A stretch of DNA of 64,000 nt from Kosakonia sacchari (GTDB lineage: Bacteria; Pseudomonadota; Gammaproteobacteria; Enterobacterales; Enterobacteriaceae), in NCBI GenBank assembly GCA_900109485.1, contig FOAY01000003.1, forward strand, positions 242,816 through 306,815, read 5' to 3'. The position numbers and the translations under genes were made by a program. The notes beneath the pieces were generated by a model. It did no database searches and had not been told where the DNA came from. It saw only the letters and a list, made by a program, of their open reading frames with translations. Positions 28,947 to 48,487 of this stretch are shown piece after piece. Every line of letters starts with the position of its first letter. The stretch's first letter is position 1.

Positions 28947-29669
28947 AATTTAAATGGAGAATATTTTTATTTTATAAATATCATCGCTCAACATAATGAT
29001 TTTATAGCTAATAGGCAATTTGAATATGTTAATTCTGACAACGGTTAATTCTATTTGCAGATCTTCTATAGGCCATTTTAATTGTAATTTTGCCTAAGGA
29101 TGAAATATTGGTTAGTCTGCGTTTAATTTAATGTAGTGTTGCTTAATAATCAATTAAGCAACGGTTATGATTTTATTGTTTGTTTATGCAGAGAGCTGAA
29201 GGCAGACTATAAATTAGCTTTGCTTAGCTGTTCGATGCTGTTAGTCTGATATTTGAATATGTGTTCTGCTATCAGAATTCTCCGCTTAAAAGAAATCGGC
29301 GAGTAAGTTTCTCAGTTCTTGCTGTTCATTAATGCGATGTTTATAAAACAGGTGAAATAGTAGTCATAAAAGCACCACTAAAAGCAAATTTTCTATTTTT
29401 ACATCGTTACATTCTATTGTCTTTTTGATGATATAAATTACCGATTAAAGTTTTTACCTCTGCCAGCGATTATTGATACGTGTAAATTTAGATCTGTGTA
29501 TAAAACAAATAATTGATGAGAAGTGCTTTTTAGATCCTTAAATTAAATTACGCATAAGAATTTACTTAAATGCCATCGGCAAGTTGTTTGTGTCGCTGGA
29601 AACATAAAAAACCTTATGCTCTGTAGTGTTTTGTTCTTTATTTTTTCTACACACGGGAGAGTTGACAAT
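28947..29669. other. AT-rich gap between flagellin and LysR genes
   Basis: About 720 bases of strongly AT-rich DNA with no convincing gene, RNA or repeat seen. Such composition is typical of transferred DNA bound by H-NS. Confidence 0.5.
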
Positions 29670-30572
29670 ATGAGAACCCAGGACCTGGAGTATTTTGTAT
29701 CGTTGGTACAACATATGAATTTCCAGAAAGCTGCCGAGGCGTGTGATGTTTCACAACCGACCCTCAGCATACAAATCAAGAAGCTGGAGGAGGAGCTAGG
29801 CATTCCTCTGCTGCACCGCAAAGGTAAAGGTTTTAGCCTGTCGCCAACCGGCCTGCATCTGTTGCCGCTGATCGAAAATATTCTCCGTGAAGTTCATAAC
29901 CTTCAGGAAATGGCGCGCTGGCTACGTTTTCAGCCGGTTGGCGTTATTAATATCGGCATTACCCCGACGCTGGGTTCTTACATTCATGAAGATTTATTTA
30001 GCGTATTTAAAGAGAAATTTCCCGATAATGAAATCAAGCTGCATGAGGTCAATGAAGATAATTTATTGAGCATGCTGGATAAAGGGCAATTGCAACTGGG
30101 TTTGCTGATTGGCCCGATTGATAACGATCGTTTCCTCGAAGCCCAGCTTTATGAAGAGCAATTTGTTCTGGGGGTAAATATCAGCCATCCATTATCCAGC
30201 TATGAAGCTATTGAACTCAAAGATTTGAAGAAGCATAAACTCATTATGACCAAGTCGATGCCAGAACATTTACATCTTGAGCCAGGTAATGAGGAGATTC
30301 TCAATCATGCGCGCAGTATTTCAAACGACCTGGAAACCATCAGGTATATGGTGAGAAATTCCGATAATGTTTCTTTCTTCCCGAAACTGTCAACGCTGGG
30401 AAATGAGCAAGGGAGCATCAAATATATCAATATCAAGGATAATAACTTATCCCGCAAAGTATTTTTGATGATGCGCGAGGGCGATATCATGAAAGAAAAA
30501 TATTACAGTTTCGGCAACGATGTCGCAGGCAGGATCAGCGCCCGGCTTTGCCCTGTGCGGCCGGGAATGTAG
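29670..30572 (+). CDS. LysR-family regulator, OxyR-like but without the redox cysteine
   Basis: 300 residues from ATG 29670, preceded by GGGAGAG; an upstream frame start at 29616 has no support. The winged helix-turn-helix (MRTQDLEYFVSLVQHMNFQKAAE, then VSQPTLSIQIKKLEEELG) is close to OxyR. In OxyR C199 lies in GHCLRDQ; the matching stretch here is PEHLHLEP, with no cysteine, and the only cysteines are in the DNA-binding domain and the last ten residues. It therefore cannot sense peroxide as OxyR does. The ligand is unknown. It sits beside the flagellin and CheZ-like genes and shares their AT-rich surroundings. Confidence 0.87.
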   Translation: MRTQDLEYFVSLVQHMNFQKAAEACDVSQPTLSIQIKKLEEELGIPLLHRKGKGFSLSPTGLHLLPLIENILREVHNLQEMARWLRFQPVGVINIGITPTLGSYIHEDLFSVFKEKFPDNEIKLHEVNEDNLLSMLDKGQLQLGLLIGPIDNDRFLEAQLYEEQFVLGVNISHPLSSYEAIELKDLKKHKLIMTKSMPEHLHLEPGNEEILNHARSISNDLETIRYMVRNSDNVSFFPKLSTLGNEQGSIKYINIKDNNLSRKVFLMMREGDIMKEKYYSFGNDVAGRISARLCPVRPGM

Positions 30573-30758
30573 CGATTATTTCTGCGCACCGACGTGCGTT
30601 TAAATTTGAGGATCAACATGTTGAGATGCAAACGTTTAAAAACGGCATAGCGTTTGTTTCTCAGCAATGCTGCTCTCTTTTCAGCACTCTTTCATATTGC
30701 ATGCAGAAAAATATTCAGTTACTGCCATGAATTTTGTATATCACTTTGTGAGATTGAG

Positions 30759-31217
30759 ATGATGGATATTGTCGTCACTGAACAGTTGGATCTTTCGTTA
30801 GAACGGGCAAGTTTTCTCAAAAAACGTTCGCAGTTATTTTTGGCCGTTGCCAGAACATCTGCGTTGTCGGATAACGCGGGCGATGAATTCGATGACGCAT
30901 TGAGTGATGATCATGCTGCTGCTATTTCCGGGATGGGGCTCGGTGAAGAAGTGAGCCTGGTGCTGGAGAGTTTACACAATATTGAGTTGGCAATGACGAA
31001 ACTCGAGGCGCTTGATAATGGCGAGCTTGCCGCTGCGGACATCACAGTCTGCTGGCAGGATGCGATCGCGTTGCTGGATGAAGCCGAAGAAGTGCTGGAA
31101 GAGTGCTGCGGCATTGATCCGGTGCATTACGCCAGCGAGGAGATCGAATGGGAGGAGAGCAACCCGTTCAAAGAAGATGACGCGCTGTTTGCCGATGACG
31201 AAGGCGGCGAGGAGTAG
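30759..31217 (+). CDS. Unknown acidic protein
   Basis: 152 residues if started at the tandem ATGs at 30759/30762; the frame runs back to 30654 but those residues are cysteine-rich and unlike the rest. The ribosome site is weak (GAG). Very acidic, with predicted long helices (VSLVLESLHNIELAMTKLEALD; ALLDEAEEVLEECCG) and a low-complexity Asp/Glu tail. No signal peptide. Not recognised. It closes the accessory segment before gstB. Confidence 0.6.
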   Translation: MMDIVVTEQLDLSLERASFLKKRSQLFLAVARTSALSDNAGDEFDDALSDDHAAAISGMGLGEEVSLVLESLHNIELAMTKLEALDNGELAAADITVCWQDAIALLDEAEEVLEECCGIDPVHYASEEIEWEESNPFKEDDALFADDEGGEE

Positions 31218-35063: not shown

Positions 35064-36296
35064 ATGCAAAACCATTCCTTATCCGGCCAACGTCTGGGAC
35101 GACGGGCGCTACTATTTCCCCTCTGCCTGGTGCTTTACGAATTCTCGACCTATATCGGCAATGACATGATCCAACCCGGCATGCTGGCGGTGGTGGAGCA
35201 GTACAACGCCGGGATCGAATGGGTGCCAACGTCCATGACCGCTTACCTGGCGGGCGGCATGTTTTTACAGTGGCTACTCGGGCCGCTGTCGGATCGCATT
35301 GGTCGCCGTCCGGTGATGCTGACCGGCGTGGTGTGGTTCATTTTGACCTGCCTTGCCACGCTGCTGGCGCAAAATATCGAACAATTCACGCTGCTGCGTT
35401 TTTTACAGGGCATCAGCCTGTGCTTTATTGGCGCGGTGGGCTACGCCGCGATTCAGGAATCGTTTGAAGAGGCCGTGTGTATCAAAATCACTGCGCTGAT
35501 GGCCAACGTGGCGCTGATTGCGCCGCTACTTGGCCCGTTGGTGGGGGCGGCCTGGGTGCATGCCGCGCCGTGGCAGGGGATGTTTGTGCTGTTCGCGGTA
35601 CTGGCGGCGTTCGCCTTTTTTGGTCTGCAAAAGGCGATGCCGGAAACGGCGACCCGCCTTGGCGAGCCACTCTCGCTGAAGGCGTTGTGGCGCGATTATG
35701 CTGAAGTCATGAAAAACCTGCGTTTTGTCGCTGGCGCGCTGGCGACCGGGTTTGTCAGCCTGCCGTTACTGGCGTGGATCGCGCAGTCGCCGATTATTAT
35801 CATTAGCGGTGAGCAACTCAGCAGCTATCAGTACGGGCTGTTGCAGGTGCCGGTTTTCGGCGCGTTGATTCTCGGTAACCTGGCGCTGGCGCGTCTGACG
35901 TCGCGGCGCACCGTACGGGCGCTGATCATTATGGGCGGCTGGCCGATTGCTGCCGGGTTGCTGCTGGCGGCCGTCGCGACGCTGGTCTCTTCTCATGCTT
36001 ATTTGTGGATGACTGCCGGGTTGAGCCTTTACGCTTTTGGCATTGGGCTGGCGAATGCCGGGCTGGTGCGCCTGACGCTGTTCGCCAGCGAGATGAGTAA
36101 GGGCACAGTGTCGGCGGCGATGGGCATGTTGCAAATGTTCATCTTTACCGTCGGTATCGAAATCAGCAAACATGCCTGGCTGGCGGGCGGCAACGGTCTG
36201 TTCAGCCTCTTCAACCTGGCAAATGGCGTGTTGTGGATCGGCCTGATGGTGGTGTTTCTGCGCGATAAACGCGTGGGGAATTCGCTGGAAGGTTAA
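35064..36296 (+). CDS. mdfA: MdfA, multidrug/proton antiporter
   Basis: 410 residues, 12 membrane helices, major facilitator superfamily. The acidic membrane residue used for cation drugs is present in [11 protein letters not shown] (helix 1), and motif A reads [14 protein letters not shown]. Very close to E. coli MdfA (Cmr). It exports chloramphenicol and lipophilic cations. No ribosome site stronger than AGAGAC is seen. Confidence 0.95.
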
Positions 36297-36324
36297 GGCG
36301 GCAGCGCATTTGCGTGCCGCCTTG
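36296..36324. terminator. Hairpin between convergent mdfA and ybjJ
   Basis: AAGGCGGCA/TGCCGCCTT stem around an 11-base loop; no long T-run, so a weak terminator or boundary. Confidence 0.5.
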
Positions 36325-36327
36325 CGG

Positions 36328-37530
36328 TTAACAGGTTTCCGCTTGTGCTTCCGGGTCCGGTTTTGCCACGGCGCGAGCGACCAGCGCGGCGATCAGCACC
36401 AGGCTGAGTACCACCAACATGGCGCTGCGCAGGCCGTAGTGCTCGCCGAGAAAACCGAGCAGCGGCGGGCCGACGAGAAAGGCCAGGTAACCGGTAGTCG
36501 CCACCACGCTAACGCGGGTGGGGGCGTCCGGGCCGGTATCGCTGGCGGCTGAGATGGTCAGCGGGAAGCCCAACGACGCACCAAGCCCCCACAAAATCAC
36601 CGACACGCCTGCCACCCAGGCGCTGTCAACAAAGATAATCAAACCAATCCCGAGCGCGCCCATTAATGCACTGGCGCGAACCACCGTAACGCGGCTGTAG
36701 CGGTCGATAAACCAGCCGCCGGTAAAACGACCAACGGTCATACCGAGGGTGAAACCGGCGTAGATCAGTGAGCCGGAAGTGGGGCTAAAACCGTGACCAT
36801 CCACCATCAGCAGCGGTAACCAGTCGTTGGCGGAGCCTTCCGCAAACGCCATCGCCAGCACCACCACACCAATCAGCAACAACTGGCTATCGCGCCAGAA
36901 GGGCATTCCTTTTTTCCCCTGCGCGTTCTCTTCTGCGGAGTTTTTGCCGGTGCCATCCGGAATGGCGGCAATCGCCAGGATAATCGGCACAATCGCCACC
37001 AGCGCCGCCAGCAGTATATGCACATTGGCGGTGAGGCCGAGCGCGGTTAACGTCATGCCAATCCCCGCGCCGACCAGCGTGCCGAAGCTGTAAAAACCGT
37101 GCATCATCGGCAGTACAGTTTTATTCATTTCGCGTTCAACCACCGCGCCTTCAATATTCAACGCCACTTCGCCCGCGCCGAGGCTGCCGCCGAACACGGC
37201 CAGCCCGAGGGCAAACAGCAGCGGTGAAGCGACCCACAACGCGAGGCTGAGGATCATCATGCCGAGCACGGAAAAGGACATGCTGGCGCGGATCACTTTG
37301 CGCGCGCCGAAGCGTTTAACCAGCCACGCGGAAGAGAGAATGCCACTCATCGAACCGATCGACAGGCCAAACAGCACGCCGCCCATTTCTGCCGTCGAGA
37401 CGGACAAAATATCGCGGATTGCAGGCGTACGCGTGGCCCAGGAGGCCATCAGTAATCCGGGCAGAAAAAAGAAAGTAAACAGCGCCCATAGGCGGTTGCG
37501 CAGGGCATTGCGGGAGGCAGTTATTGTCAT
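36328..37530 (-). CDS. ybjJ: YbjJ, MFS transporter
   Basis: 400 residues from ATG 37530 (GAGAAG upstream). Twelve-helix major facilitator protein of the YbjJ type ([28 protein letters not shown]). The substrate is unknown. It diverges from rcdA, a TetR regulator, across an 80-base gap containing a palindrome, so it may be repressed by RcdA. Confidence 0.93.
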
Positions 37531-37577
37531 AACTTCTCGTTGGAAAAGGAAAAGGTGAGACAACACTAGCAAGGAAG

Positions 37578-37591
37578 TGTACATTTGTACA
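37578..37591. promoter_or_regulatory. Operator-like palindrome between ybjJ and rcdA
   Basis: TGTACA-TT-TGTACA, two copies of a self-complementary hexamer, in the divergent control region. TetR proteins usually bind such a site and regulate both neighbours. Confidence 0.6.
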
Positions 37592-37610
37592 TAAATCAGT
37601 GAGAGGATCT

Positions 37611-38153
37611 ATGGCACGACGACCGAATGACCCGCAGCGGCGCGACCGCATTCTTGAAGCGACGCTGGACACCATCGCCGAACACGGCATCCAGGCGGTA
37701 ACTCACCGCAAAATCGCCAGCTGTGCGGATGTGCCGCTCGGCTCGATGACCTACTATTTTTCCGGCATTGATGCGCTGCTGGAAGAGGCATTTAGCCGCT
37801 TTACCGACCAGATGTCGGCGCAGTACGCCGCTTTCTTTGACGGTGTTGACAGCCCGGTGCAGGCCTGTGATGCGGTCACGGATCTGATCTACGGCGCGCA
37901 GGTTACCACTGCACGCAATATGGAATTGATGTACCAGCTTTACGCCTTTATGAGCCGCCAGCCAGTACTGAAAAGCGTGATGCAAAACTGGATGCGCTCC
38001 AGCCAGACAACCCTTGAACGCTGGTTTGATCCGATCACGGCGCGTGCGCTGGATGCCTTTATCGAAGGGATGACGCTGCACTTTGTGACTGACAGGCAGC
38101 CGCTGAGCCGCGAAGAGATCCGCCTAATGATTGGCCGTATCGCCGGGCTCTGA
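37611..38153 (+). CDS. rcdA: RcdA (YbjK), TetR-family regulator
   Basis: 180 residues from ATG 37611 (GAGAGGATCT upstream), starting [15 protein letters not shown]. Helix-turn-helix [22 protein letters not shown], and [15 protein letters not shown] near the end as in E. coli. RcdA activates csgD, the master gene of curli and biofilm, and controls stress genes. Its last 30 bases overlap the convergent ComB-like gene. Confidence 0.94.
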
Positions 38154-38870
38154 GCGGTATGCGTTATCCTGCAACCGGCAGGCGCGGCGGCTGACATCCA
38201 GCGCCAGGCACAGCGCGACATCGCGGGCAAAACCTCTCTCCTGAAGCTCTCTTGCTGAGGCGCAGTGATGTAAATCAGCGAGGCTGCTTTCACGAAATGC
38301 CGCGGCTGCGACTTGTGCTTCCGGCGACAGATGGCGTTTGCCGAGGGCGGCAATAATCGCTCCCGCCGCCAGATAATCTTCTACTGCCGGGCGCAGGCTA
38401 CCATCCGGCCAGCGCTCTCCAGCCGGGATCAGCAAAATGCGTTGAAAACCAGCGCAGGCCTGTGCGGTGGCAGTCCGGTTGCGGAAGCAGCCGCTAAATA
38501 CCGCCGCGCCGCAGTCGCGCGCTTTGAAGGAGATCGTCGAACCGTTCGGCGAGGGCAGCACCAGCCGGTGCCCGGCGGGAATATCGCGCAATGAAGTCGG
38601 TGAGAGCGTATAGCGCTCGCCGCTGAACGTGCGTTCGAAACTGGCGACATTGGCACCGTTCTCCTGTGCGTAGCGCAGCGCGCTGTCATCTTTCCACGGC
38701 CATGGATAGATAAGCGCGTCGTTATCATTTGCCAGGCTGACGCAGGTGGAAAACGACATCACATCGACAATCACCACGCAATCTGCTTCGTGCGCCAGAT
38801 GTTCCGCCGCCGCTAAACCCCACTCCAGCCGCACTTCAAACGGGTTTTGGTTGAACCAGGCGTTGCTCAT
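38124..38870 (-). CDS. ComB-family protein (2-phosphosulfolactate phosphatase-like)
   Basis: 248 residues from ATG 38870 (GAGG upstream); the longer frame to 38963 is unsupported. It matches the ComB family through [29 protein letters not shown] and [15 protein letters not shown]. ComB removes phosphate from 2-phosphosulfolactate in coenzyme M or sulfolactate synthesis, but no partner genes (comA, comC) are present, so the real substrate here may differ. It is not in the E. coli order. Tail overlap with rcdA is 30 bases. Confidence 0.82.
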
Positions 38871-39099
38871 TGGGGAGCCTCTATTAGTTGTCGTCCGGTA
38901 ATAAAGCAGAATAGCGCGATGAAAAACAATCCACTGGCGATTTCTCTGTAAAAGGGTGTGCATATATTCATCTAAAATTCAGATGAATTTCATCCGCTTA
39001 TTGGATTTGACGTTAAAAAAATCGCTGGTAACGTTTCTGACAACCCTTCCCGCTTTGCTCACCCTCGCATATTTTTTAATGAGAATGGAGAGGTGCATA

Positions 39100-40128
39100 A
39101 TGCGAGGTCGATTCACGATAGCGGGGTGGTTTCTGATGGCGAGTATTTCGGGTTCGGCATTGGCTGCCACCCAAGAGCTGGCGGGCAATACGCCTGGCGC
39201 GGAGGTCATTCACGTTGAAAAATCCCGCGGGCAGATCGATTTACTGAGCAATATCGTTTACAGCCAGATTCGGAATGTGCGTTCCATTCGCCAGTTAAAC
39301 ATGTCGCTACTGGTTCCGCGCACCAGCGCGCTGAAACCGGCCATCGTTTACTTCCCCGGAGGCGGTTTTACTTCCGCCGATTACGACAAATTTATTGAAA
39401 TGCGTATGGCGCTGGCGGAAGCGGGGTTTGTTGTCGCCGCGGCGGAGTATCGTGTTGTGCCGAATACCTTCCCGGCGCCGCTGGAAGATGGTAAAGCCGC
39501 AGTGCGCTATTTGCGCGCGCATGCGAAGGAGTACAACATCGATCCGCAACGAATCGGTGTGTTGGGGGATTCTGCTGGTGGCTGGATGGCCCAGATGCTC
39601 GGCACCACCAACAATATAAAAACCTTCGATACCGGCGACAACACCGATCAATCGTCGGCAGTGCAGGCGGTTGCGACGTTATATGGCATTTCAAACTTGC
39701 TGAATATTGGCGAAGGATTCCCGGAGGAGATCCAGCAGGTACATCGCTCTCCGGCGGTCACCGAATCACTGTTGGTGAACGGCGCAGCTTTCAGGAATTT
39801 CCCCGGCGCGACCATCGACAGCGATAAACAAAAAGCGCTGAATGCCAGCCCGATGGGGCATATCAGCGGTAATGAGCCACCGTTCCTTATCATGCACGGC
39901 AGCGCCGACACGCTGGTGTCGCCGGTGCAGAGCGCGCAGCTTTTCAATGCGCTGAAAGAGAAACATGACAAGGTAAAATACATCCTGGTTAAAGGCGCAG
40001 AGCATGGCGATATTTCCTGGTTCCAGCCTGCGGTGATCAAAACGGTGGTCGAGTGGTTCAAACAGACGTTAGGCGCACCCGTAAACGGTGAGGGCAAAGC
40101 GGCAAGCGGTAAAGACGGCAACCTGTAA
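39100..40128 (+). CDS. Secreted acetyl-esterase/lipase-type alpha/beta hydrolase
   Basis: 342 residues from ATG 39100, which has GGAGAGG upstream and gives a signal peptide ending GSALA-A; the frame runs back to 38956 but without signal features. The hormone-sensitive-lipase type core is complete: oxyanion loop FPGGGF, nucleophile GDSAGG, acid HGSADTLVSP and histidine GAEHGD. It acts in the periplasm or outside on short-chain or sugar acyl esters. It is the last gene before the rybB-associated island. Confidence 0.85.
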   Translation: MRGRFTIAGWFLMASISGSALAATQELAGNTPGAEVIHVEKSRGQIDLLSNIVYSQIRNVRSIRQLNMSLLVPRTSALKPAIVYFPGGGFTSADYDKFIEMRMALAEAGFVVAAAEYRVVPNTFPAPLEDGKAAVRYLRAHAKEYNIDPQRIGVLGDSAGGWMAQMLGTTNNIKTFDTGDNTDQSSAVQAVATLYGISNLLNIGEGFPEEIQQVHRSPAVTESLLVNGAAFRNFPGATIDSDKQKALNASPMGHISGNEPPFLIMHGSADTLVSPVQSAQLFNALKEKHDKVKYILVKGAEHGDISWFQPAVIKTVVEWFKQTLGAPVNGEGKAASGKDGNL

Positions 40129-40185
40129 GCGGAGTAATAAAGGCCACCGGAGCGCGTTGAGTAATTCCTTGAGGAGTGAATTTCG

Positions 40186-40201
40186 GGCAACAAAAACCCA
40201 T
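40186..40201 (+). repeat. Left direct repeat of the island (att-like)
   Basis: GGCAACAAAAACCCAT, identical to 44819-44835 except for one A in the run. The other copy is the 3' end of rybB plus its flank. Confidence 0.7.
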
Positions 40202-40204
40202 TTT

Positions 40205-40438
40205 CTGTGGTAGCTGGTGGACAGCAGTTGATTGGCGCGACTGTTAATATCGGCAGCGAAAGCGTGAACACCCTGGCCATGATGCTGACACCATCGATTT
40301 GCTGGCAGAGCTGGCGCAGCAGTGCGCCAGCCACACCCCCCCCCGATACCGGCACGCCGACCAACGCCAGCACCTTTACGCAGACGGCTGGCAGGGCAGG
40401 ACAGACCCCCAGCAAGTATCAGGGCATCATCGCCTGAT
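40205..40438 (+). pseudogene. Fragment of a VgrG / phage baseplate spike C-terminus
   Basis: Three pieces in different frames line up with the C-terminus of VgrG or gpV-like spikes: VAGGQQLIGATVNIGSESVNTL, then TIDLLAELAQQCASHT, then DTGTPTNASTFTQTAG with the ending KYQGIIA and TGA at 40436-40438. The second shift lies at a run of nine C where the usual HTHP becomes HTPPP. The rest of the gene is missing, so this is a remnant from a prophage or T6SS locus. Confidence 0.65.
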
Positions 40439-41170
40439 CCCATTCCTATGCCCGCGTTCTGAGCGCGTCACGATCCGCCCCCATCAGCATGAGCGCACCC
40501 GCCTCACTTCGCTGGCACAGCCACGAGGCGACAAAATAAAGTCGTCACAGACAAAAACGGCACTACACCGCACCCGCCTGCGGTTTTTGGATCGGGGAAA
40601 ATTTCCAGTTTTGTTTTTCTTCAAACCAGACCGCCAGACCGTGCCACTGCTGGCGGTTTGCAGAAAAAATGGAACTAAAAAGATTGAAAAGAATTTCAGT
40701 GTTTTTCAGTTTTCAGGATCGCATAAGGTTTCGTTTGATATTTCAACTGTTTGTTTATAAAGATAATTTGTGATTTTACGTCATGAGTAAGGATCTTTAG
40801 CAGGCTGATAATCAATGATACTGAAAGTATGGTATGCCATGTTTGATGTAGTTTTCGGAGGTTTCTAATAATATAGATGATTGATAAAAATAATATTAAA
40901 AGTCTATGGTTGGTAAGAATGGCTAAATAGAGTGAATCGAAGGTGTTATAATTACCAGTAAAATGGTTATTTACATAAAAACTCATAATTCAATGGGTAT
41001 ATATCATGACGGATAGTAGGGGTTAAAGTTGGGATGTTACATAAATAATAGAGTTATTTATTTTTAAAGTTATAAATATAATTTTAGACACTGGCGATTA
41101 CTTACAGTAATCGCCAGTGGTTTAATTGAATTATCTAGTTTTTATCGAGTGAGATTCTCATGAGCCTTAT
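40439..41170. other. Non-coding, decayed region of the island
   Basis: The first 260 bases have normal GC and look like eroded coding DNA with no intact frame. From about 40690 it becomes AT-rich like the NACHT gene downstream. An inverted pair (CTGGCGATTACTTACAGTAATCGCCAG, about 41093-41119) may end transcription of neighbours. Confidence 0.5.
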
Positions 41171-43402
41171 TTAATTAGCCATATCTAATTTGGTTGCCTC
41201 AATCCAAATATCGTCTTTAGAAGTGTTCATCTCATGCGTAATTAATAGCATCCGGTGACGTGCAGAGTTGATTGCTTTGTAGATATATCCTTCGTCTCCA
41301 TTAACTGTTTCGATGACATTATATTTTAAAAGTAATTCAACAATCTTATTAACTGCTTTTTTTTCTTGTTGGTTTTTAAAACCTTTTATTAGTGAACGTT
41401 CTTTCCTTCCTCTACCGCCTTGTATAAAAACGCGGCGGATACATGATAACAATGCCACTTGATGATTCTTAAGTCCTAGTCTTTTTATTTTTGAAGTTGT
41501 ATTTACAGAGCTAAATTGCTCAACTCTGCAATTTGAAAAATAATTCGGTAGTGCGGAGATATCTGATATCCCCGTAACAAGATTTATTTCACAGCCATCA
41601 AAGGAAATGCTTTCTTTTGGTTCGATATAACAGTCTGTAATATCAATGGAGTTAATCATGCACTCGGATATATTTAAATTTCCGAATGAAATGTTACTTA
41701 GGTCTAGCTTTTCAATAAAACAATCATTTATTGATAATCTTCTAAAGTTAATAATATCCTCGCTGTCACTTTCATTCATGAAAGCACATAGTAGATCTGC
41801 TGATGCTTGTGTGTTTGTATTGGACCAAAGTAGTATTTTACTAACTATTTTTGATGGTTCTTTATTCGCAATTTTATTATAAAGTAATCTTTGACCAAAT
41901 TCACGCAGTGGATTGGTCCACGTAGAAGTTTTTGAGATAACATCAGTATCATAGTGAGATATCATATACTCGGCACGAAGTCCGTCAAGCATATATAAAT
42001 CTATGAACTGGTAATCTGAGCTTTCATTGCCAACACGACCAAAAGAAGGTAATCTTGATAAAATAATTGCTGACTCATCGGTAGCTGAACGCCCTGTAAT
42101 ATTGCTGAAAACGGAACTAACCTCGTTTATAGTAATTGGTCCAAAATCATTATTTTTTATTCTTGTTAAATTTGCCAACTCTATAAGTATTTGCCTGATA
42201 GTTTCCGGGTCGAGAATGGTTTTTTTAATGGTTGCTTCTCTGGAACAAATAAAACTAATTAATTTATCCCAAAAAGCAAACTCATTCTCATATGCTAATA
42301 AATCACCTTTACCTGCAAGACTTGCTATCATTTGAAAAATTAATGGCTTCCAGGGAGCCCAGTGTGGAAGGATGTAGTCTTCGCAACCAATATTGTGCAT
42401 ATAAGTTTTCATTTCATCTTCATTGAATTGTTCAGCACATTCCAATAATAAAGTCTCGCTTTCTTTTAATCCTAAAAAGTTAAACATTTCAGCATCGCTG
42501 TTGAAGTAATTCTCCCTTCCGGTAATTATAACGCCTCCCTTAGTGTTTTGTATTATATCTTTAACCCCAATTAAAGCATCTTGTTTTGCTTGGCTTAGTT
42601 TTGTGGGCTCGTTGCTCCAGTTTTGTGAACCTACCTCATCAAAGCCATCAAGCATGAATATGCATTTTTTTATTTCAAATAATTTAACTGAATTATTTAC
42701 GGCCTCAGGAGGGAATGCGAGATCTTCAAAATGTCTCCTGATTATTTCGTTGGCTCTTTTTAAACTCCAGTTTTCTCTTAGGTTTATAGCAAAACAGTAT
42801 GCATTGTCATGTTCTCCTGTATATTTTGTAAAAATCTCTCGCAGGCATCGACTTTTACCTGAACCAAAACTTCCTTTTAGAATTATTTTATTTCCTTTAT
42901 CGAGAAGTTGTTTTATGTCTTCTATTTTCAACTCTTTATTGGTTCGTGAGTCAATATATTTTACGGGAACGTATGGATTGCTATCTATTTCTCCTGTCCA
43001 GGGATCTATTGCACTACCTATATTTTTCTGCTTGCGTAAATGGACATAATTCCTGTAATCAATAAACTTACTTTCAAATTCTGATAAACTCAATAATTCA
43101 ATTTTGCTTGCGTTTGCTGTCTGTTTCATTAAGTCAGATGGGGGATTCTGAAGGATCATTATACATTTCGTAAATATGCCTTTTGAATTATTGTTGTTTT
43201 TTAATATTAATAACTTATTAATGTCATTCCTTACTTTATCTAAGGTGTGATTTTGAGTGACCTCAATACAAATGGCATAATCATCAGCTATTTGTAAAAA
43301 ACAATCGAACTGCATTCCATCTAAGACTATTGATTTAGCTTCTCTGTTATAAATTAATCTCGAAAATGTTTTTACTCTACTTTCCAATGTCATCCAATCC
43401 AT
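41171..43402 (-). CDS. NACHT-type STAND NTPase with N-terminal nuclease-like domain, candidate antiphage defence protein
   Basis: 743 residues. Residues 1-130: D33 (MQFDCF) and E47-V-T49 (CIEVT) on strands recall the restriction-endonuclease fold, though the usual ExK lysine is a threonine. NACHT NTPase: Walker A GSFGSGKS (177-184) and Walker B CIFMLDGFDEV (246-257). The middle is helical. Residues about 560-640 hold short pentapeptide-like repeats (LSNISFGNLNISEC), followed by a winged-helix-like end. Known bacterial NACHT and Avs proteins sense phage products and then kill the cell. Strongly AT-rich, unlike neighbours, so acquired. Single-gene system; nothing else intact lies in the island. 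Confidence 0.85.
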   Translation of the reverse strand: MDWMTLESRVKTFSRLIYNREAKSIVLDGMQFDCFLQIADDYAICIEVTQNHTLDKVRNDINKLLILKNNNNSKGIFTKCIMILQNPPSDLMKQTANASKIELLSLSEFESKFIDYRNYVHLRKQKNIGSAIDPWTGEIDSNPYVPVKYIDSRTNKELKIEDIKQLLDKGNKIILKGSFGSGKSRCLREIFTKYTGEHDNAYCFAINLRENWSLKRANEIIRRHFEDLAFPPEAVNNSVKLFEIKKCIFMLDGFDEVGSQNWSNEPTKLSQAKQDALIGVKDIIQNTKGGVIITGRENYFNSDAEMFNFLGLKESETLLLECAEQFNEDEMKTYMHNIGCEDYILPHWAPWKPLIFQMIASLAGKGDLLAYENEFAFWDKLISFICSREATIKKTILDPETIRQILIELANLTRIKNNDFGPITINEVSSVFSNITGRSATDESAIILSRLPSFGRVGNESSDYQFIDLYMLDGLRAEYMISHYDTDVISKTSTWTNPLREFGQRLLYNKIANKEPSKIVSKILLWSNTNTQASADLLCAFMNESDSEDIINFRRLSINDCFIEKLDLSNISFGNLNISECMINSIDITDCYIEPKESISFDGCEINLVTGISDISALPNYFSNCRVEQFSSVNTTSKIKRLGLKNHQVALLSCIRRVFIQGGRGRKERSLIKGFKNQQEKKAVNKIVELLLKYNVIETVNGDEGYIYKAINSARHRMLLITHEMNTSKDDIWIEATKLDMAN

Positions 43403-43613
43403 AGTTCCTCCGCTAAAAGTCTTTGAATAAAATGATCTATATAACTGAAAGGTATAGCAAGCTTGGTTTTTTCGTTAATCAAGAGTTCACAAATGAATAT
43501 AACGTATTATCCGTCTGAAAGTAATAGGTTTCGCAAGGATTCTGAGCTGCTCCCCGTTGATTAATACATCGCGATGTTAGTAATGTATTCATTAGCAACG
43601 TGAGGGCATCCCC

Positions 43614-43718
43614 ATGAAGAAGCGTTTTTCCGACGAACAGCTCATCAGTATCCTCCGCGAGGCCGAAGCCATGCTGAATAAGGAGGCGCTTCAGGTAGCT
43701 CTGGGCCGAAAGTTCTGA
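43614..43718 (+). pseudogene. IS3-family orfA with internal deletion
   Basis: 34 codons. The start, MKKRFSDEQLISILREAEA, is joined directly to the normal end MLNKEALQVALGRKF. About 50 residues, including the helix-turn-helix, are missing. Confidence 0.85.
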
Positions 43719-44575
43719 CGACAGACCAGAAGCGGGAAGCCGTGGAAGTCATGCGTGAGGCAACGGTTCTGTCGCGACGTCATGCCTGCAGGCTGGCCGG
43801 TTTGTCCCTGTCAACATGCCGTTATGAGGTTCAGCGTTCGGCTGCTAACGCGCAGTTATCCGCGCGCATCACTGAACTGACAATTGAACGCCGCCGCTTT
43901 GGTTACCGGCGTATCTGGCAGCTTATGCGACGTTGAGGTCTTTACGTTAATCACAAGCAGGTTTACCGCATTTATCATCTTAACGGCTTGAGTGTAAAAC
44001 GCAGACGGCGTCGCAAAGGGCTGGCGACTGAGCGGCTTCAGCTTCTGCGCCCGGATGCACCGAAGCTGACCTGGTCGATGGATTTTGTCATGGATGCACT
44101 CGCCAGTGGCCGACGAATTAAGTGCCTGACCTGCGTGGATGACTTCACGAAGGAGTGTCTGACGATTACCGCTGCTTTCGGGATTCCAGGTGCTCAGGTC
44201 ACGCGTATTCTGGACAGCATTGCGCTGTTTCGTGGCTATCCGGCGACGATAAGAACCGATCAGGGCCCTGAATTTACCTGTCGCGCGCTCGATCAATGGG
44301 CCTTTGAGCATGGAGTGGAACTGCGCATAATCCAGTTGGGCAAGCCAACGCAGAACGGGTTTATTGAGAGTTTTAACGGTCGCTTTCGGGATGAATGCCT
44401 GAATGAGCACTGGTTCAGCGATATTGCCCACGCGAGGAAAATCATTAATGCCTGGCGGCAGGACTATAACGAATGTCGGCCTCATACAGCACTGAATTAC
44501 CAGACGCCATCAGAGTTTGCAGCACGGTGGCGAAATGGAAAATTAGATAGTAACAGAACAGATATTACTAACTGA
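43712..44575 (+). pseudogene. IS3-family orfB transposase with nonsense codon
   Basis: One reading frame across the whole region, interrupted by TGA at 43934-43936 (LMRR[18 protein letters not shown]). The DDE residues remain: D in WSMDFVMD, D in RTDQGPEF and E in [14 protein letters not shown]. The downstream piece could be translated from 43988 but lacks the N-terminal part. Confidence 0.88.
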
Positions 44576-44604
44576 CAGTTGTATCGAATAGTGGGGGCCG
44601 GTCA

Positions 44605-44690
44605 TCCTTGCTTCAAGACCAACCTCGGCGCATTCATCTATGAATGTCTGTTTGATATCTTCCGGGAGATAGAAAACGAGTTAAGAGTAC
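44605..44690 (-). pseudogene. Short coding remnant beside the IS
   Basis: On the minus strand a 27-codon frame reads VFYLPEDIKQTFIDECAEVG and on into the IS end. No start is visible, and the matching continuation on the far side of the IS was not found. Possibly the remains of a gene cut by the insertion. Confidence 0.3.
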
Positions 44691-44818
44691 CTGGATTGAC
44701 TTTGTGATGACACAAAAATTTTCCTTTATGTGAACGGCACAAATCGCTGTCGCCATTCTGTCGCCAAAGGCTACGCATAGGCTATGTAACCTAATGATTT
44801 ATAGAGTTAATAATAACA

Positions 44819-44835
44819 GGCAACAAAAAACCCAT
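44819..44835 (+). repeat. Right direct repeat of the island, inside the rybB terminator
   Basis: GGCAACAAAAAACCCAT; matches 40186-40201 with one extra A. It overlaps the T-run and first stem bases of rybB. Confidence 0.7.
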
Positions 44836-44903
44836 CAACCTTGAACCAAAATGGCGGGGTTGATGGGCTCCACAAAATGGGGACATCAAAGAAAAGCAGT
44901 GGC
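44825..44903 (-). ncRNA. rybB: RybB small RNA
   Basis: The minus strand starts GCCACTGCTTTTCTTTGATG at 44903, the conserved RybB seed end, and closes with the stem CCCATCAACC/GGTTGATGGG and a T-run near 44825. It differs from E. coli RybB in very few bases. RybB is an Hfq-dependent RNA that down-regulates outer-membrane porin mRNAs during envelope stress. Position next to ybjL is as in E. coli. Its 3' end is the island boundary. Confidence 0.96.
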
Positions 44904-44908
44904 ACTAG

Positions 44909-44936
44909 TTATGACTGACACCCCAGAAAAAAGTTC
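44909..44936 (-). promoter_or_regulatory. Sigma-E promoter of rybB
   Basis: Minus strand: GAACTT (44936-44931), 16 bases, then TCATAA (44914-44909), six bases before the RNA start. This fits the known RpoE dependence of rybB. Confidence 0.7.
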
Positions 44937-44969
44937 TGCGCATAACTGAAATATTTTTCAGCTTAGGAG

Positions 44970-46655
44970 TTATCCGAGTCCCGGCCAGATGATGATGATT
45001 AGCGTCCCCGCCAGGGTTAACAATACGTTTGCGATCGCGTAGGTTCCGGCGTAGCCCAGCGCCGGGATGTTGCTGCGCGCGGTATCGCTGATGATCTCCA
45101 TGGCGGGCGCGCAGGTACGTGCGCCCATCATCGCGCCAAAGAGCAGGGCGCGGTTCATTTTCAGCACGTACGCGCCGAACAGGAAACAGATCAGCACCGG
45201 AACGAGGCTTACGATCAACCCGGCGATCAGCATCTGCCCGCCGACGGCGCCCAGACCATGACCAATGCCGCTACCGGCGCTTAAGCCGACTCCAGCCATA
45301 AACACCATCAGGCCAAACTCTTTCACCATCATCAGCGCACCCTGCGGGATATAGCCGAACGTCGGGTGGTTCGCACGCAGGAAGCCAAGCATGATACCGG
45401 CGAACAGCAGGCCGGCGGCATTACCCACGCCAAAACTGAACGAGCTGAACTGGAAGGTGATCATGCCGATCATCAGGCCAACAATAAAGAAGGCGCAGAA
45501 GGCGAGCAGATCGGTCACCTGGCTGTGAATCGAGATAAAGCCGATGCGGTCGGCAATGGTTTTCACCCGGCGGGCATCGCCGCTGATTTGCAGCACGTCG
45601 CCTTTATTGAGCACGATATTGTCGTCGATCGGCATCTCAATCTGGCTACGGATCACGCGGTTAAGAAAACAACCGTGATCGGTCAGTTTCAACTGCGCGA
45701 GACGACGGCCAACCACATTGTGGTTCTTCACCACAACTTCTTCCGTCACGATGCGCATATCCAGCAGATCGCGATCGAATACCTCTTTACCGTTGCGGAA
45801 ACTGGGATCGAGGCGCGCATGCGCGTCCGGGTAACCGACCAGCGAGATCTCATCGCCCATTTGCAGCACTGCGTCACCGTCCGGGCTGGCGAGAATACCG
45901 TTGCGGCGAATACGCTCAATATAACAACCGGTCTGGCGATAGATCCCCAGCTCGCGCAGGTTCTTGCCGTCGGCCCAGGCCACCAGTTCCGGCCCGACGC
46001 GGTAAGCGCGGATCACCGGCAGATAAACTTTGCGATGGGCATCGGTATCGAGGCCGCGTTCGCGAGCGATCTGTTGGGCGCTGGTTTGCAGATCCTGGTG
46101 TTGCAGCTTCGGCAAATAACGCGCGCCGAAAATCAGGCTGACCAGACCAATCAGGTAGGTTAACGCGTAGCCAAGGCTGAGATTATCCAGCGCGCTGGCA
46201 AGATGGCCGCTCTCCATTGAGGCATGGCGCAGCGTATCGCCAGCGCCAACCAGAACGGGGGTTGAGGTCATCGAACCTGCCAGCATCCCGGCGGTGAGGC
46301 CAATATCCCAGCCGAACAATTTTCCCAGCCCTAAGGCAATTAATAGCGCGCTGCCAACTAATACCAGCGCGAGCATCAGATAATTCTTACCGTCGCGGAA
46401 AAAAATCGAAAAAAAGTTGGGGCCAGCTTCAACACCCACACAAAAAATAAACAGCATAAAGCCAAGATTTAATGCATCTGTGTTTATGCTGAAATGCTGC
46501 TGACCTAATAATAACGAAACGACTAAAACGCCAATGGAATTACCGAGTTGTACCGAACCCAGACGTAATTTACCAAGACAAAGGCCGAGTGCCAGTACCA
46601 CAAACAATAACAGTATGTAATTCCCGTTTAACAAATCTGCGACGTTTATATTCAC
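44970..46655 (-). CDS. ybjL: YbjL, AspT/YidE-family membrane transporter
   Basis: 561 residues. Two blocks of membrane helices flank two cytosolic RCK_C-type domains (about 200-380; [23 protein letters not shown]). [15 protein letters not shown] in the first block and [20 protein letters not shown] in the second are the twin signature of the aspartate:alanine antiporter family. The substrate is unknown. Start as in E. coli ([20 protein letters not shown]). Confidence 0.95.
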
Positions 46656-46929
46656 GGAGGCTAACTTCTTGTTTACTTGTAAGTTGTTGAAAGGAATGGT
46701 TATTTGAGCTAGTGTTTTGAACGTGCGCTGGCAAAAAAAAGCGGTGTTGCACCATGCATTCTTCGCAAAACAAAAACAGGGCGATAGTTTAATCGGATTA
46801 GATTACAACGGCTAGTGAGAATCGCGTGTTTACGGCCAGGCCATTTCAGGTATGGATTGCCGTCACCCTTTATCTGTCCGGACATTCTTTTGAACAAACG
46901 GGTATGTGATAGAGAGTCAGGAGGATTGT

Positions 46930-47289
46930 TTGAAGCTCAGGCGACGTCGGCTCGGTGTTATTTGCAGTTTTCTACTCTTTATTGCGGTATGCCTTTCTCT
47001 GGTCGTTAGTATGAAAGGGGATTTACCCGGTTCTGGTAAACCCGCAACAGGTTTGTTGTTTTTTATATTGCCCGGTATTGCCAGCGGCTTTGTTGCTCGC
47101 CGCCGCCGGGTGGTGATTGCGCTGCTGGGGGCGCTGCTGGCGCTACCGTTCTGCTATGTACTGATTCATCTGTTTCTGCTGCCGTCGCGATCGGTCTGGC
47201 AGGAGCTGGCCTGGCTGTTCAGCGCGATGTTCTGGTGTGGGATTGGCGGTCTGGCGTGTCTGTTTGTGGGCAGGGTGTTCAGGCACTAA
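46930..47289 (+). CDS. ybjM: YbjM, inner-membrane protein
   Basis: 119 residues with about four membrane helices. The start is set at TTG 46930, five bases after AGGAGG; the resulting MKLRRRRLGVICSF matches the beginning of E. coli YbjM. An upstream GTG at 46906 has no ribosome site. SVWQELAWLFSAMFWCGIGG is the best conserved part. Function unknown. Confidence 0.85.
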   Translation: MKLRRRRLGVICSFLLFIAVCLSLVVSMKGDLPGSGKPATGLLFFILPGIASGFVARRRRVVIALLGALLALPFCYVLIHLFLLPSRSVWQELAWLFSAMFWCGIGGLACLFVGRVFRH

Positions 47290-47291
47290 AA

Positions 47292-47311
47292 CGCCCCCGG
47301 AAATGGGGGCG
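47292..47311. terminator. Terminator between convergent ybjM and grxA
   Basis: CGCCCCC-GGAAAT-GGGGGCG stem-loop. Confidence 0.65.
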
Positions 47312-47323
47312 GGCGTCGGGCCG

Positions 47324-47587
47324 TTATGCAAACAGGCCGAAATGCTGTTTGGCGTAGGCTTCAAAATCAGTGCAGCCGCCAATGTGTTGCTGGTCGAGGA
47401 AAATCTGCGGTACGGTTTCTACCGGTTTACCGACGGTTTTTTCCAGATCGGCTTTCGTAATCCCTTCCGCGTGAATATCGACATAGCGATAGTTGAAATC
47501 ATCACGTTCAGCGGTCAGTTTTTCTGCCAGCTCTTTTGCGCGCACGCAGTACGGGCAGCCCGGGCGACCAAAAATTACAGCAAACAT
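47324..47587 (-). CDS. grxA: Glutaredoxin 1
   Basis: 87 residues, near identical to E. coli GrxA. Redox site CPYC (11-14), cis-Pro in TVPQIF and the glutathione-binding GGCTDFEAY. It reduces ribonucleotide reductase, PAPS reductase and OxyR using glutathione. AAGGAGAGAG precedes the ATG. Confidence 0.97.
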   Translation of the reverse strand: MFAVIFGRPGCPYCVRAKELAEKLTAERDDFNYRYVDIHAEGITKADLEKTVGKPVETVPQIFLDQQHIGGCTDFEAYAKQHFGLFA

Positions 47588-47764
47588 ACTCTCTCCTTAA
47601 ACCTGAAGGTTAATGGCCGCTATCATGACCAAACCCTGGCCTGATGGAAAGCAGGTTCTGCCTGTTGCATTAATCTCTGCAACCTTTCAGGACAATTTCG
47701 GTTTACTGCGATCCTGCGTCTCTGTCCTATACTCGGGGTCTTGTTTCTACGGGGATTATTCATC

Positions 47765-48487
47765 ATGACACCAACGATTGACTTGCTGTGCGCCCATCGT
47801 TCCATTCGCCACTTTACCGATCAACCTGTCACGCAGGAGCAGCGTGAAGCGATCATCGCCAGCGCGCAGGCGACCTCCAGCTCCAGCTTTTTACAGTGCA
47901 GCTCAATTATTCGCATAACCGATAGGGCGATGCGTGAACAACTGGTGGCATTGACCGGCGGGCAGCAGCATGTCGCTCAGGCGGCTGAGTTCTGGGTGTT
48001 CTGCGCGGATTTCCATCGTAACTTTGAAATCAGCCCGGAAGCGAAACCCGGTCTTGCGGAACAACTGCTGCTGGGTATGGTAGATACCGCGCTGATGGCG
48101 CAAAACGCCTTTACGGCGGCGGAATCTCTGGGGCTCGGCGGTGTTTATATCGGCGGTATTCGTAACAATATCGAAGCGGTGGGTGAACTGTTACAGGTGC
48201 CAAAACATGTGCTGCCGCTGTTTGGCCTGTGCCTTGGCTGGCCGGCGGACGACCCGGGTTTAAAACCGCGGATGCCGGCGTCGCTGCTGGTGCATGAAAA
48301 CCATTATCAGCCGCTGGATCGTGATGTGCTGGCGCAGTATGACGAAGAGATCGCTAACTACTATCTGACGCGTGGCAGCAATACGCGCCGCGATACGTGG
48401 AGCGATCATATCCGTCGCACGCTGATTAAAGAGAATCGTCCTTTTATTCTCGATTATTTGCATAAACAGGGATGGGCAACACGCTAA
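47765..48487 (+). CDS. nfsA: NfsA, oxygen-insensitive NADPH nitroreductase
   Basis: 240 residues from ATG 47765, beginning MTPTIDLLCAHRSIRHF like E. coli NfsA. The FMN-binding parts HRSIR, QATSSSSFLQ and GLGGVYIGGIRNN are present. It reduces nitroaromatics and quinones. In E. coli ybjC stands between grxA and nfsA; here the 177-base gap contains no ybjC. rimK follows in the same direction. Confidence 0.95.
   Translation: MTPTIDLLCAHRSIRHFTDQPVTQEQREAIIASAQATSSSSFLQCSSIIRITDRAMREQLVALTGGQQHVAQAAEFWVFCADFHRNFEISPEAKPGLAEQLLLGMVDTALMAQNAFTAAESLGLGGVYIGGIRNNIEAVGELLQVPKHVLPLFGLCLGWPADDPGLKPRMPASLLVHENHYQPLDRDVLAQYDEEIANYYLTRGSNTRRDTWSDHIRRTLIKENRPFILDYLHKQGWATR

Follow-up and report, generated by a model that had tools for sequence, protein, structure and literature searches.

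A gene on the minus strand of the window (the whole stretch of DNA analysed, 64,000 nucleotides of Kosakonia sacchari) had been described in the initial annotation as a NACHT STAND protein with a nuclease-like N-terminus and as a candidate single-gene antiphage system, which raises the question of whether this architecture is real, whether the N-terminal domain could act as a nuclease, and whether the protein could serve in defence. The observation as a whole, a NACHT protein with a restriction-endonuclease-fold N-terminus, was confirmed. By analogy with described bacterial systems, the gene product is probably an NLR-like single-gene antiphage protein with a nuclease effector, carried as prophage cargo.

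Layout of the protein

The gene is intact in one reading frame from its ATG start and encodes 743 amino acids, and the Walker A and NACHT-type Walker B motifs are present in it as originally written (Table 1). An alignment of 23 members, the window's own included, was assembled from Proteobacteria, Chlorobi, Bacteroidales, a plasmid and (pro)phages, and the Walker motif residues are invariant across it. Pfam NACHT was found in 23/23 members at E<=0.1 (best 8.4e-10); the window protein's own match (E 1e-5, 25.9 bits) lies slightly below the cut-off of 26.7, and its further Pfam matches are nSTAND3 and a weak Pentapeptide_4 (E 0.013, 16 bits vs a cut-off of 38). A NACHT NTPase with these two Walker motifs is the mark of bacterial NACHT STAND proteins, and Pfam, the motifs, AlphaFold2 and Foldseek agree on such a protein with a nuclease-fold N-terminus.

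A full-length AlphaFold2 model of the window protein (mean pLDDT 82.8) displayed an N-terminal effector, a central NACHT core and a putative C-terminal sensor. When this model was compared with the PDB by Foldseek, eight of the best 12 rows were titled NLRP3, NLRC4, NLRP7 or NAIP5, and the remaining four were mouse egg or SCMC assemblies, which presumably contain NLRPs; TM-scores of the whole model against NLR structures stay low, with TMq at 0.20-0.32 in the best 12 rows. Against viral models, one strong match was obtained, to a phage protein named as an NLR (E 9.9e-13), with AAA ATPases after it.

The pentapeptide-like repeats noted at the outset are real, but they are degenerate and short, and because a winged-helix-like C-terminus comes after them the sensor end is not purely pentapeptide. 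Among solved structures, a profile of the 23 members matched the pentapeptide-repeat proteins 2xt4 (E 0.0016) and 2xt2 (E 0.0023) best, over residues 553-615, and much more weakly 5irl (E 0.045), which we take to be NOD2, and NLRP5 and NLRP2 chains. Nine pentads are in register by eye in residues 551-595, the beta-helix strands lie about 20 residues apart in the AlphaFold2 model, and the helices and two strands at residues 646-710 look winged-helix-like by eye. Residues 551-635 are the least conserved stretch, with a mean identity to the window protein of 27% vs 42% for residues 160-370, as expected of a sensor, and the C-terminus would be the sensing end.

Table 1. Positions in the window of the gene, its predicted domains and residues, and the elements around it
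Feature	Position	Strand	Basis
REase-fold / NACHT / beta-helix / wHTH-like protein, 743 aa	41171..43402	-	intact ORF, AlphaFold2, 23-member alignment
Restriction-endonuclease-like domain, residues 1-124	43031..43402	-	model, Foldseek, conservation
E7 (predicted motif I)	43382-43384	-	conservation
D33 (predicted motif II)	43304-43306	-	conservation
E47 (predicted motif III)	43262-43264	-	conservation
T49	43256-43258	-	conservation
K56 (next helix, putative motif IV)	43235-43237	-	conservation
NACHT NTPase core, residues 160-370	42293..42925	-	Pfam NACHT, NLR structures heading the Foldseek list
Walker A GSFGSGKS, residues 177-184	42851-42874	-	sequence
Walker B LDGFDEV, residues 251-257	42632-42652	-	sequence
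Helical region, residues 371-550	41753..42292	-	AlphaFold2 model
Pentapeptide-like beta-helix, about residues 551-631	41510..41752	-	model strands, solved pentapeptide structures matched, conservation
Winged-helix-like C-terminal domain, residues 646-710	41273..41467	-	by eye from model helices and strands
Stretch (4.65 kb) corresponding to 56 bp in sister genome G003	40160..44816	.	comparison with G003
RybB sRNA gene, adjoining the island	44822..44900	-	Rfam RF00110, 106 bits
Direct repeat GGCAACAAAAACCCAT, proposed distal attachment-site copy	40186..40201	+	repeat comparison
Direct repeat GGCAACAAAAAACCCAT, RybB 3' end, proposed attachment site	44819..44835	+	repeat comparison, Rfam
Insertion-sequence remnant (IS1222 frameshift element 43685-43802, integrase-core ORF 43988-44575)	43685..44575	+	
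Inverted repeat, 14-bp stem, some 50 bases beyond the stop codon	41089..41119	.	terminator-like on the + strand only, opposite the gene's strand

The N-terminal domain and its acidic site

Residues 1-133 were also modelled alone (AlphaFold2, pLDDT 89.3), and in both models the N-terminus runs through helix 3-18, strands 23-27, 30-39 and 42-49, helix 54-73, strand 77-84, helix 90-98 and strand 102-105. As modelled, this succession follows the order of core elements in a restriction-endonuclease fold (residues 1-115), and D33 and E47-V-T49 lie on the adjacent strands 30-39 and 42-49, the strand pair that had been proposed. Structure prediction had been put forward as a check for a nuclease fold at residues 1-130, and it recovered that fold rather than refuting it.

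Foldseek comparison of the N-terminal model with the PDB returned 1188 matches, and known nucleases make up 28 of the best 32 rows, namely Can2, Cdn1, Card1, EndoMS, a P. abyssi repair endonuclease, viral cap-snatching endonucleases, BspD6I and BstEII. The other four rows are the arenavirus L-protein N-terminal domain (two) and the uncharacterised VC1899 and AF1548, and from row 33 onward other folds, e.g. CysK, are intermixed at low probability. The Foldseek probability is 1.00 for rows 1-9 at an E-value of about 1e-3; because the best E-value is only 1.1e-3 and none of the 1188 matches reaches 1e-3, what is matched is a fold and no one family.

Some Can2-/Cdn1-type and cap-snatching endonucleases cut RNA, and the rank of these enzymes among the best structural matches speaks for an active nuclease with RNA instead of DNA as its substrate. 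However, the matches also include EndoMS, the P. abyssi repair endonuclease and restriction enzymes, and bNACHT25/32, the closest tested architecture, degrades DNA according to the accessible text of PMC12169576; RNA is considered an unlikely substrate.

E7, D33 and E47 are the sole invariant residues among positions 2-115 (23/23 members), and the probability of three random positions in that stretch all being acidic is 0.0019. Judged by sequence, these residues correspond to the acidic site of PD-(D/E)XK nucleases, motifs I, II and III. The classical motif III lysine (ExK) by which PD-(D/E)XK nucleases are recognised is missing from all 23 members, position 49 being T in 19, S in four and K in none. 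The initial annotation had presented the Lys-to-Thr change as a mark distinguishing this protein from described types, and this was not borne out, as T/S is family-wide (23/23) and the variant site has a published precedent. Recent mutational decay of the ExK site was ruled out because T/S at residue 49 is common to the whole family. On the next helix, K56 is present in 22/23 members and N in one, R58 in 21/23, and K or R at position 63 in 22/23.

A 2007 survey gives E9, D33, E46 and K48 as the corresponding residues of the Hjc resolvase and, in its accessible portion, describes families with another residue at the place of the motif III lysine, frequently T in DUF1626, the lysine having likely relocated to the motif IV helix (PMC1913061). 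In that account DUF1626, DUF506 and DUF790 have the motif III lysine replaced and basic residues on the next helix, and they serve here as a precedent for the active site alone. The acidic triad and helix lysine of the window family fit this documented PD-(D/E)XK variant at the sequence level, and the N-terminal domain, its oddity thus precedented, is probably active as a nuclease. K56 could be doing the lysine's catalytic work; since one member has N there, it may also not be catalytic.

The absence of the ExK lysine from 23/23 members would equally be expected if the N-terminus were a catalytically dead restriction-endonuclease domain acting as a nucleic-acid-binding sensor or scaffold, with the output elsewhere, e.g. 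in the C-terminal winged helix or a partner. Inactive NACHT-associated domains of this kind are thought to exist, because Pfam names a 'NACHT-associated inactive Restriction Endonuclease 1' family (PF22722). A dead domain need not, however, retain E7, D33 and E47 as its sole invariants, and the ExT plus helix-lysine site has its precedent in PMC1913061, as far as that text is accessible. Furthermore, the family is unrelated to PF22722 by profile (hhalign probability 3.5; one of 21 N-termini, E 0.029), and a dead domain is rather unlikely.

With these values, and with no Pfam match of the window protein to it at E<=1, membership in NA-iREase1 (PF22722) was rejected. The best PADLOC match of the window protein is a weak one to CARF4-PDDEXK (E 0.001, residues 27-116). 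When 21 N-termini were searched with Pfam, SMEK (PF21941) matched three weakly (best E 0.017, 15.4 bits vs a cut-off of 27), and Mrr_cat (E 0.13), DUF790 (E 0.059) and SNaCT10, one of the SNaCT C-terminal domains that mark bNACHT clade 14 (E 0.59), matched one each.

Relatives, genomic settings and proposed function

The gene family is rare. Counting the window's own genome, the gene was found in 2/97 close genomes, 2/392 genomes of the family, 2/369 genomes of the class (the second a match to the NACHT core only) and, by profile at E<=1e-10, 4/398 genomes of the phylum, as well as in 1/72,556 plasmid records and 1/50,697 phage records. A scan of genome contigs with the single sequence gave no match, and an alignment-based profile was needed for eight loci there (Alphaproteobacteria, Chlorobaculum, Bacteroidales, Novosphingobium, Methylobacter, Burkholderiales, Rhodocyclales and Azospirillum); on viral contigs the profile found 19 loci, ten nearly whole length, and a second scan of these contigs found no further locus. 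Searches of plasmid and phage proteins with the relative L017 returned only the two records already found, and no match came from E. coli genomes at the DNA level, whether the query was the window gene (near) or L014 or L016 (distant). Left out of the alignment were L020, whose coordinates and scores are identical to those of L019, L024-L032, which match only around NACHT, L005 (27% over 162-372 only) and L012, in which the frame is split in two. This last, a Rhodocyclales relative (L012:7908-10206), has two overlapping frames and is a pseudogene or a sequencing error.

The viral-contig copies L014 and L015 are 69% identical to the window protein and 99% to each other. The dN/dS ratio is 0.040 between L014 and the copy in sister genome G012 and 0.037 between L014 and L015 (0.051 and 0.089, respectively, within residues 1-115); in most comparisons with the window gene dS is saturated. 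Since ratios this low mean strong purifying selection, the G012, L014 and L015 copies are maintained and are not decaying. The observation is also not a matter of chance, because the 23 aligned homologues span the full length and the near pairs are under such selection.

Pfam places the gene in L014 between a phage portal gene (Phage_portal, E 5.3e-16) and a GPA replication gene (Phage_GPA, E 6.9e-119); in L015 the upstream portal is 97% identical to that of L014 and the downstream GPA homologue 30% identical. This location is the gpQ-gpA hotspot of P2-like prophages, from which, according to the accessible text of PMC9122126, eight further systems were cloned, of which three, in addition to old-tin, defended. 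With two relatives in this P2 prophage defence hotspot, a defence function is plausible. A DUF3644 protein (L014:10404-11651, E 2.5e-48) lies in the same hotspot as the NACHT gene of L014 and is a possible second defence gene.

On further viral contigs, the L018 copy has a terminase nearby, L021 an integrase, L023 a tail-collar gene, and L017 and L019 UmuC-type polymerases. One copy is in Pseudomonas phage Haddon, and another, on an Erwinia persicina plasmid, is annotated merely as a NACHT domain-containing protein. A separate, clear pentapeptide-repeat protein is encoded upstream of the plasmid copy (L003:8613-9188). On the Bacteroidales contig (L008), the second gene upstream encodes a PtuA homologue (E 1.2e-127) that matches 94 PADLOC models at E<=1e-8; it was the one match when ten neighbours were run through PADLOC one by one. 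A total of 103 neighbouring ORFs were listed, and 100 of them, from 20 loci, were aligned and scanned with PADLOC as a set, which yields counts and no owners: 196 models matched at E<=1e-5, and PtuA, methyltransferases, mad3, mad8, NsnB, PDC-S19 and PD-Lambda-5_B are among the matches listed, each in one or two proteins. No conserved partner gene was found among the 100 neighbours. L017 and L019 have a UmuC/UmuD-type pair in common and L016 and L019 share one protein, and because only these three pairs recur between loci, none is a partner. The family is a single-gene one, in line with the initial annotation.

The lack of a widely recurring partner, the prophage or plasmid location of several loci and the tracing of just one neighbour to a named defence protein would also suit a non-defence prophage or plasmid gene, with a part in lysogeny control, element competition or maintenance. 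The NLR-like architecture with its nuclease-fold effector and the portal-GPA hotspot location of relatives argue against this, and element competition would itself count as defence; a role outside defence is judged quite unlikely.

No PADLOC, NCBIfam or PHROG family convincingly claims the window protein (its single NCBIfam match is far under the cut-off), although the nameless phrog_18297 matches 13 of the 23 members, the window protein not among them, and PADLOC mad8 weakly matches ten (best E 4.2e-4). The family is therefore unnamed, no named family of these three collections covering the window protein; the kind itself, bacterial NLR-like proteins, is known. Avs (AVAST) proteins have an effector-NTPase-sensor plan, which the window protein shares. 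Likeness to Avs or bNACHT had been suggested, and the layout is indeed seen in the model, but Avs models gave no match to the window protein at E<=1 and Avs2 matched 1/23 members (E 0.0047), so the protein is not assigned to Avs. The structures closest to the N-terminal model belong to CARF nucleases of the Can2 / Card1 / VC1899 type, in line with the weak CARF4-PDDEXK match; unlike these, the window protein has no CARF match in Pfam (E<=1), and control would be via its NACHT NTPase. NA-iREase1 and SMEK are likewise nuclease-type domains of defence proteins with weak matches to the family, SMEK being called a nuclease of short Argonaute systems in the accessible part of PMC10810196.

The closest known systems in architecture, bNACHT25/32 (clade 6), likewise join a NACHT centre to an N-terminal PD-(D/E)XK-type domain, a DNase whose D48A mutation abolishes defence and which degrades DNA (PMC12169576, accessible text). 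In a comparison by description only, they carry an NCH1 C-terminal domain, and the window family has ExT/S in place of ExK, together with a pentapeptide-like beta-helix and a winged helix; NCH1 is not among the Pfam matches listed for the window protein or the members (25 of 29 families), in a Pfam copy that may or may not include an NCH1 model. STAND proteins of the P4 hotspot that start with an Mrr_cat or BpuSI_N nuclease domain, as outlined in the accessible text of PMC9122126, likewise combine a nuclease domain, a STAND NTPase and C-terminal repeats in a phage-satellite hotspot; this comparison is again by description only, and Mrr_cat is found in just the one N-terminus noted above. The accessible portions of PMC7159879, PMC10853773, PMC8195603, PMC13092281 and PMC10952713 do not describe the window protein, and no literature joining AVAST and a pentapeptide repeat was found in the searched collection.

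By analogy, the protein would function as a bacterial NLR whose effector is a nuclease, bNACHT25/32 being an example (PMC12169576, accessible text). The C-terminal beta-helix and winged helix, together with the helical region, would detect infection, and ATP-dependent oligomerisation of the NACHT core would then unite the N-terminal PD-(D/E)XT nuclease domains. With a metal site built from E7, D33 and E47, and with K56 standing in for the ExK lysine, these domains would cleave nucleic acid, most likely DNA. We infer both cleavage and defence; destruction of the infected cells' DNA would halt the phage by abortive infection, and the gene would move as prophage cargo, P2-like prophages included. 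If this is true, bacterial NLR-like immunity gains an unnamed single-gene family whose nuclease site is an alternative one and whose sensor end is unusual. The pentapeptide-repeat fold is known for DNA mimicry. A more specific proposal, that this is a distinct NLR-like sensor family in which the ExT/S nuclease is inactive until NACHT assembly and the beta-helix and winged helix read a DNA-bound phage or replication protein and no free protein, is given little credence.

The island at the RybB sRNA gene

The gene had been placed in an AT-rich island, and its GC content is indeed 33.2%, vs 55.4% for positions 36001-41000 and 52.5% for 44001-48000, each of these two stretches taking in an end of the island; more exactly, the island is an insertion at the RybB sRNA with a direct repeat on either side. 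The repeat GGCAACAAAAA(A)CCCAT is found at both island edges, at 40186 and at 44819, and the 64 kb contain just two copies of its 11-base core. Among the 11 of 15 genomes of the genus search in which the RybB interval was inspected, the core lies on both sides in three (the window's, G009 and G012), is single in seven and is absent from one (G013). In G012 the repeats enclose 33.7 kb that include a P2-like prophage's genes for portal, GPA and integrase, and in G009 about 6 kb with CI repressor and KAP NTPase genes; because they enclose this prophage and this insert, the RybB 3' end has the look of an attachment site used by P2-like phages.

The window's island in turn looks like a prophage remnant that has retained its cargo, and a P2-like prophage may have carried the window's copy in. 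Several points run counter to this: no P2 gene was recognised in the window's island, positions 40222-40713 match an ORF of G013 in the same interval (76-80%), several sister genomes have inserts here that lack a second repeat, and in G012 about 240 kb separate the gene copy from the P2-like prophage. These data suggest that the RybB 3' end serves as a prophage attachment site at which cargo is left behind in the genus.

Within the genus, the loci bearing on the proposed RybB 3'-end site are the window (44819-44900), L069, and L072 with L085, with a P2-like prophage in one sister and an apparent prophage remnant in another. The decayed stretch 40222-40713 aligns with L086:5831-6383 and resembles by eye the C-terminus of a tail-spike or VgrG; the G013 ORF concerned (L086:5877-6605) matched no Pfam family. 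In the insertion-sequence remnant beside the gene, the transposase reading frame appears broken by eye. The inverted repeat past the stop codon is weak, a scan for terminator-like inverted repeats having found one vs 2.1 expected by chance. A second AT-rich dip, with 37-43% GC, lies at positions 29001-31000 of the window.
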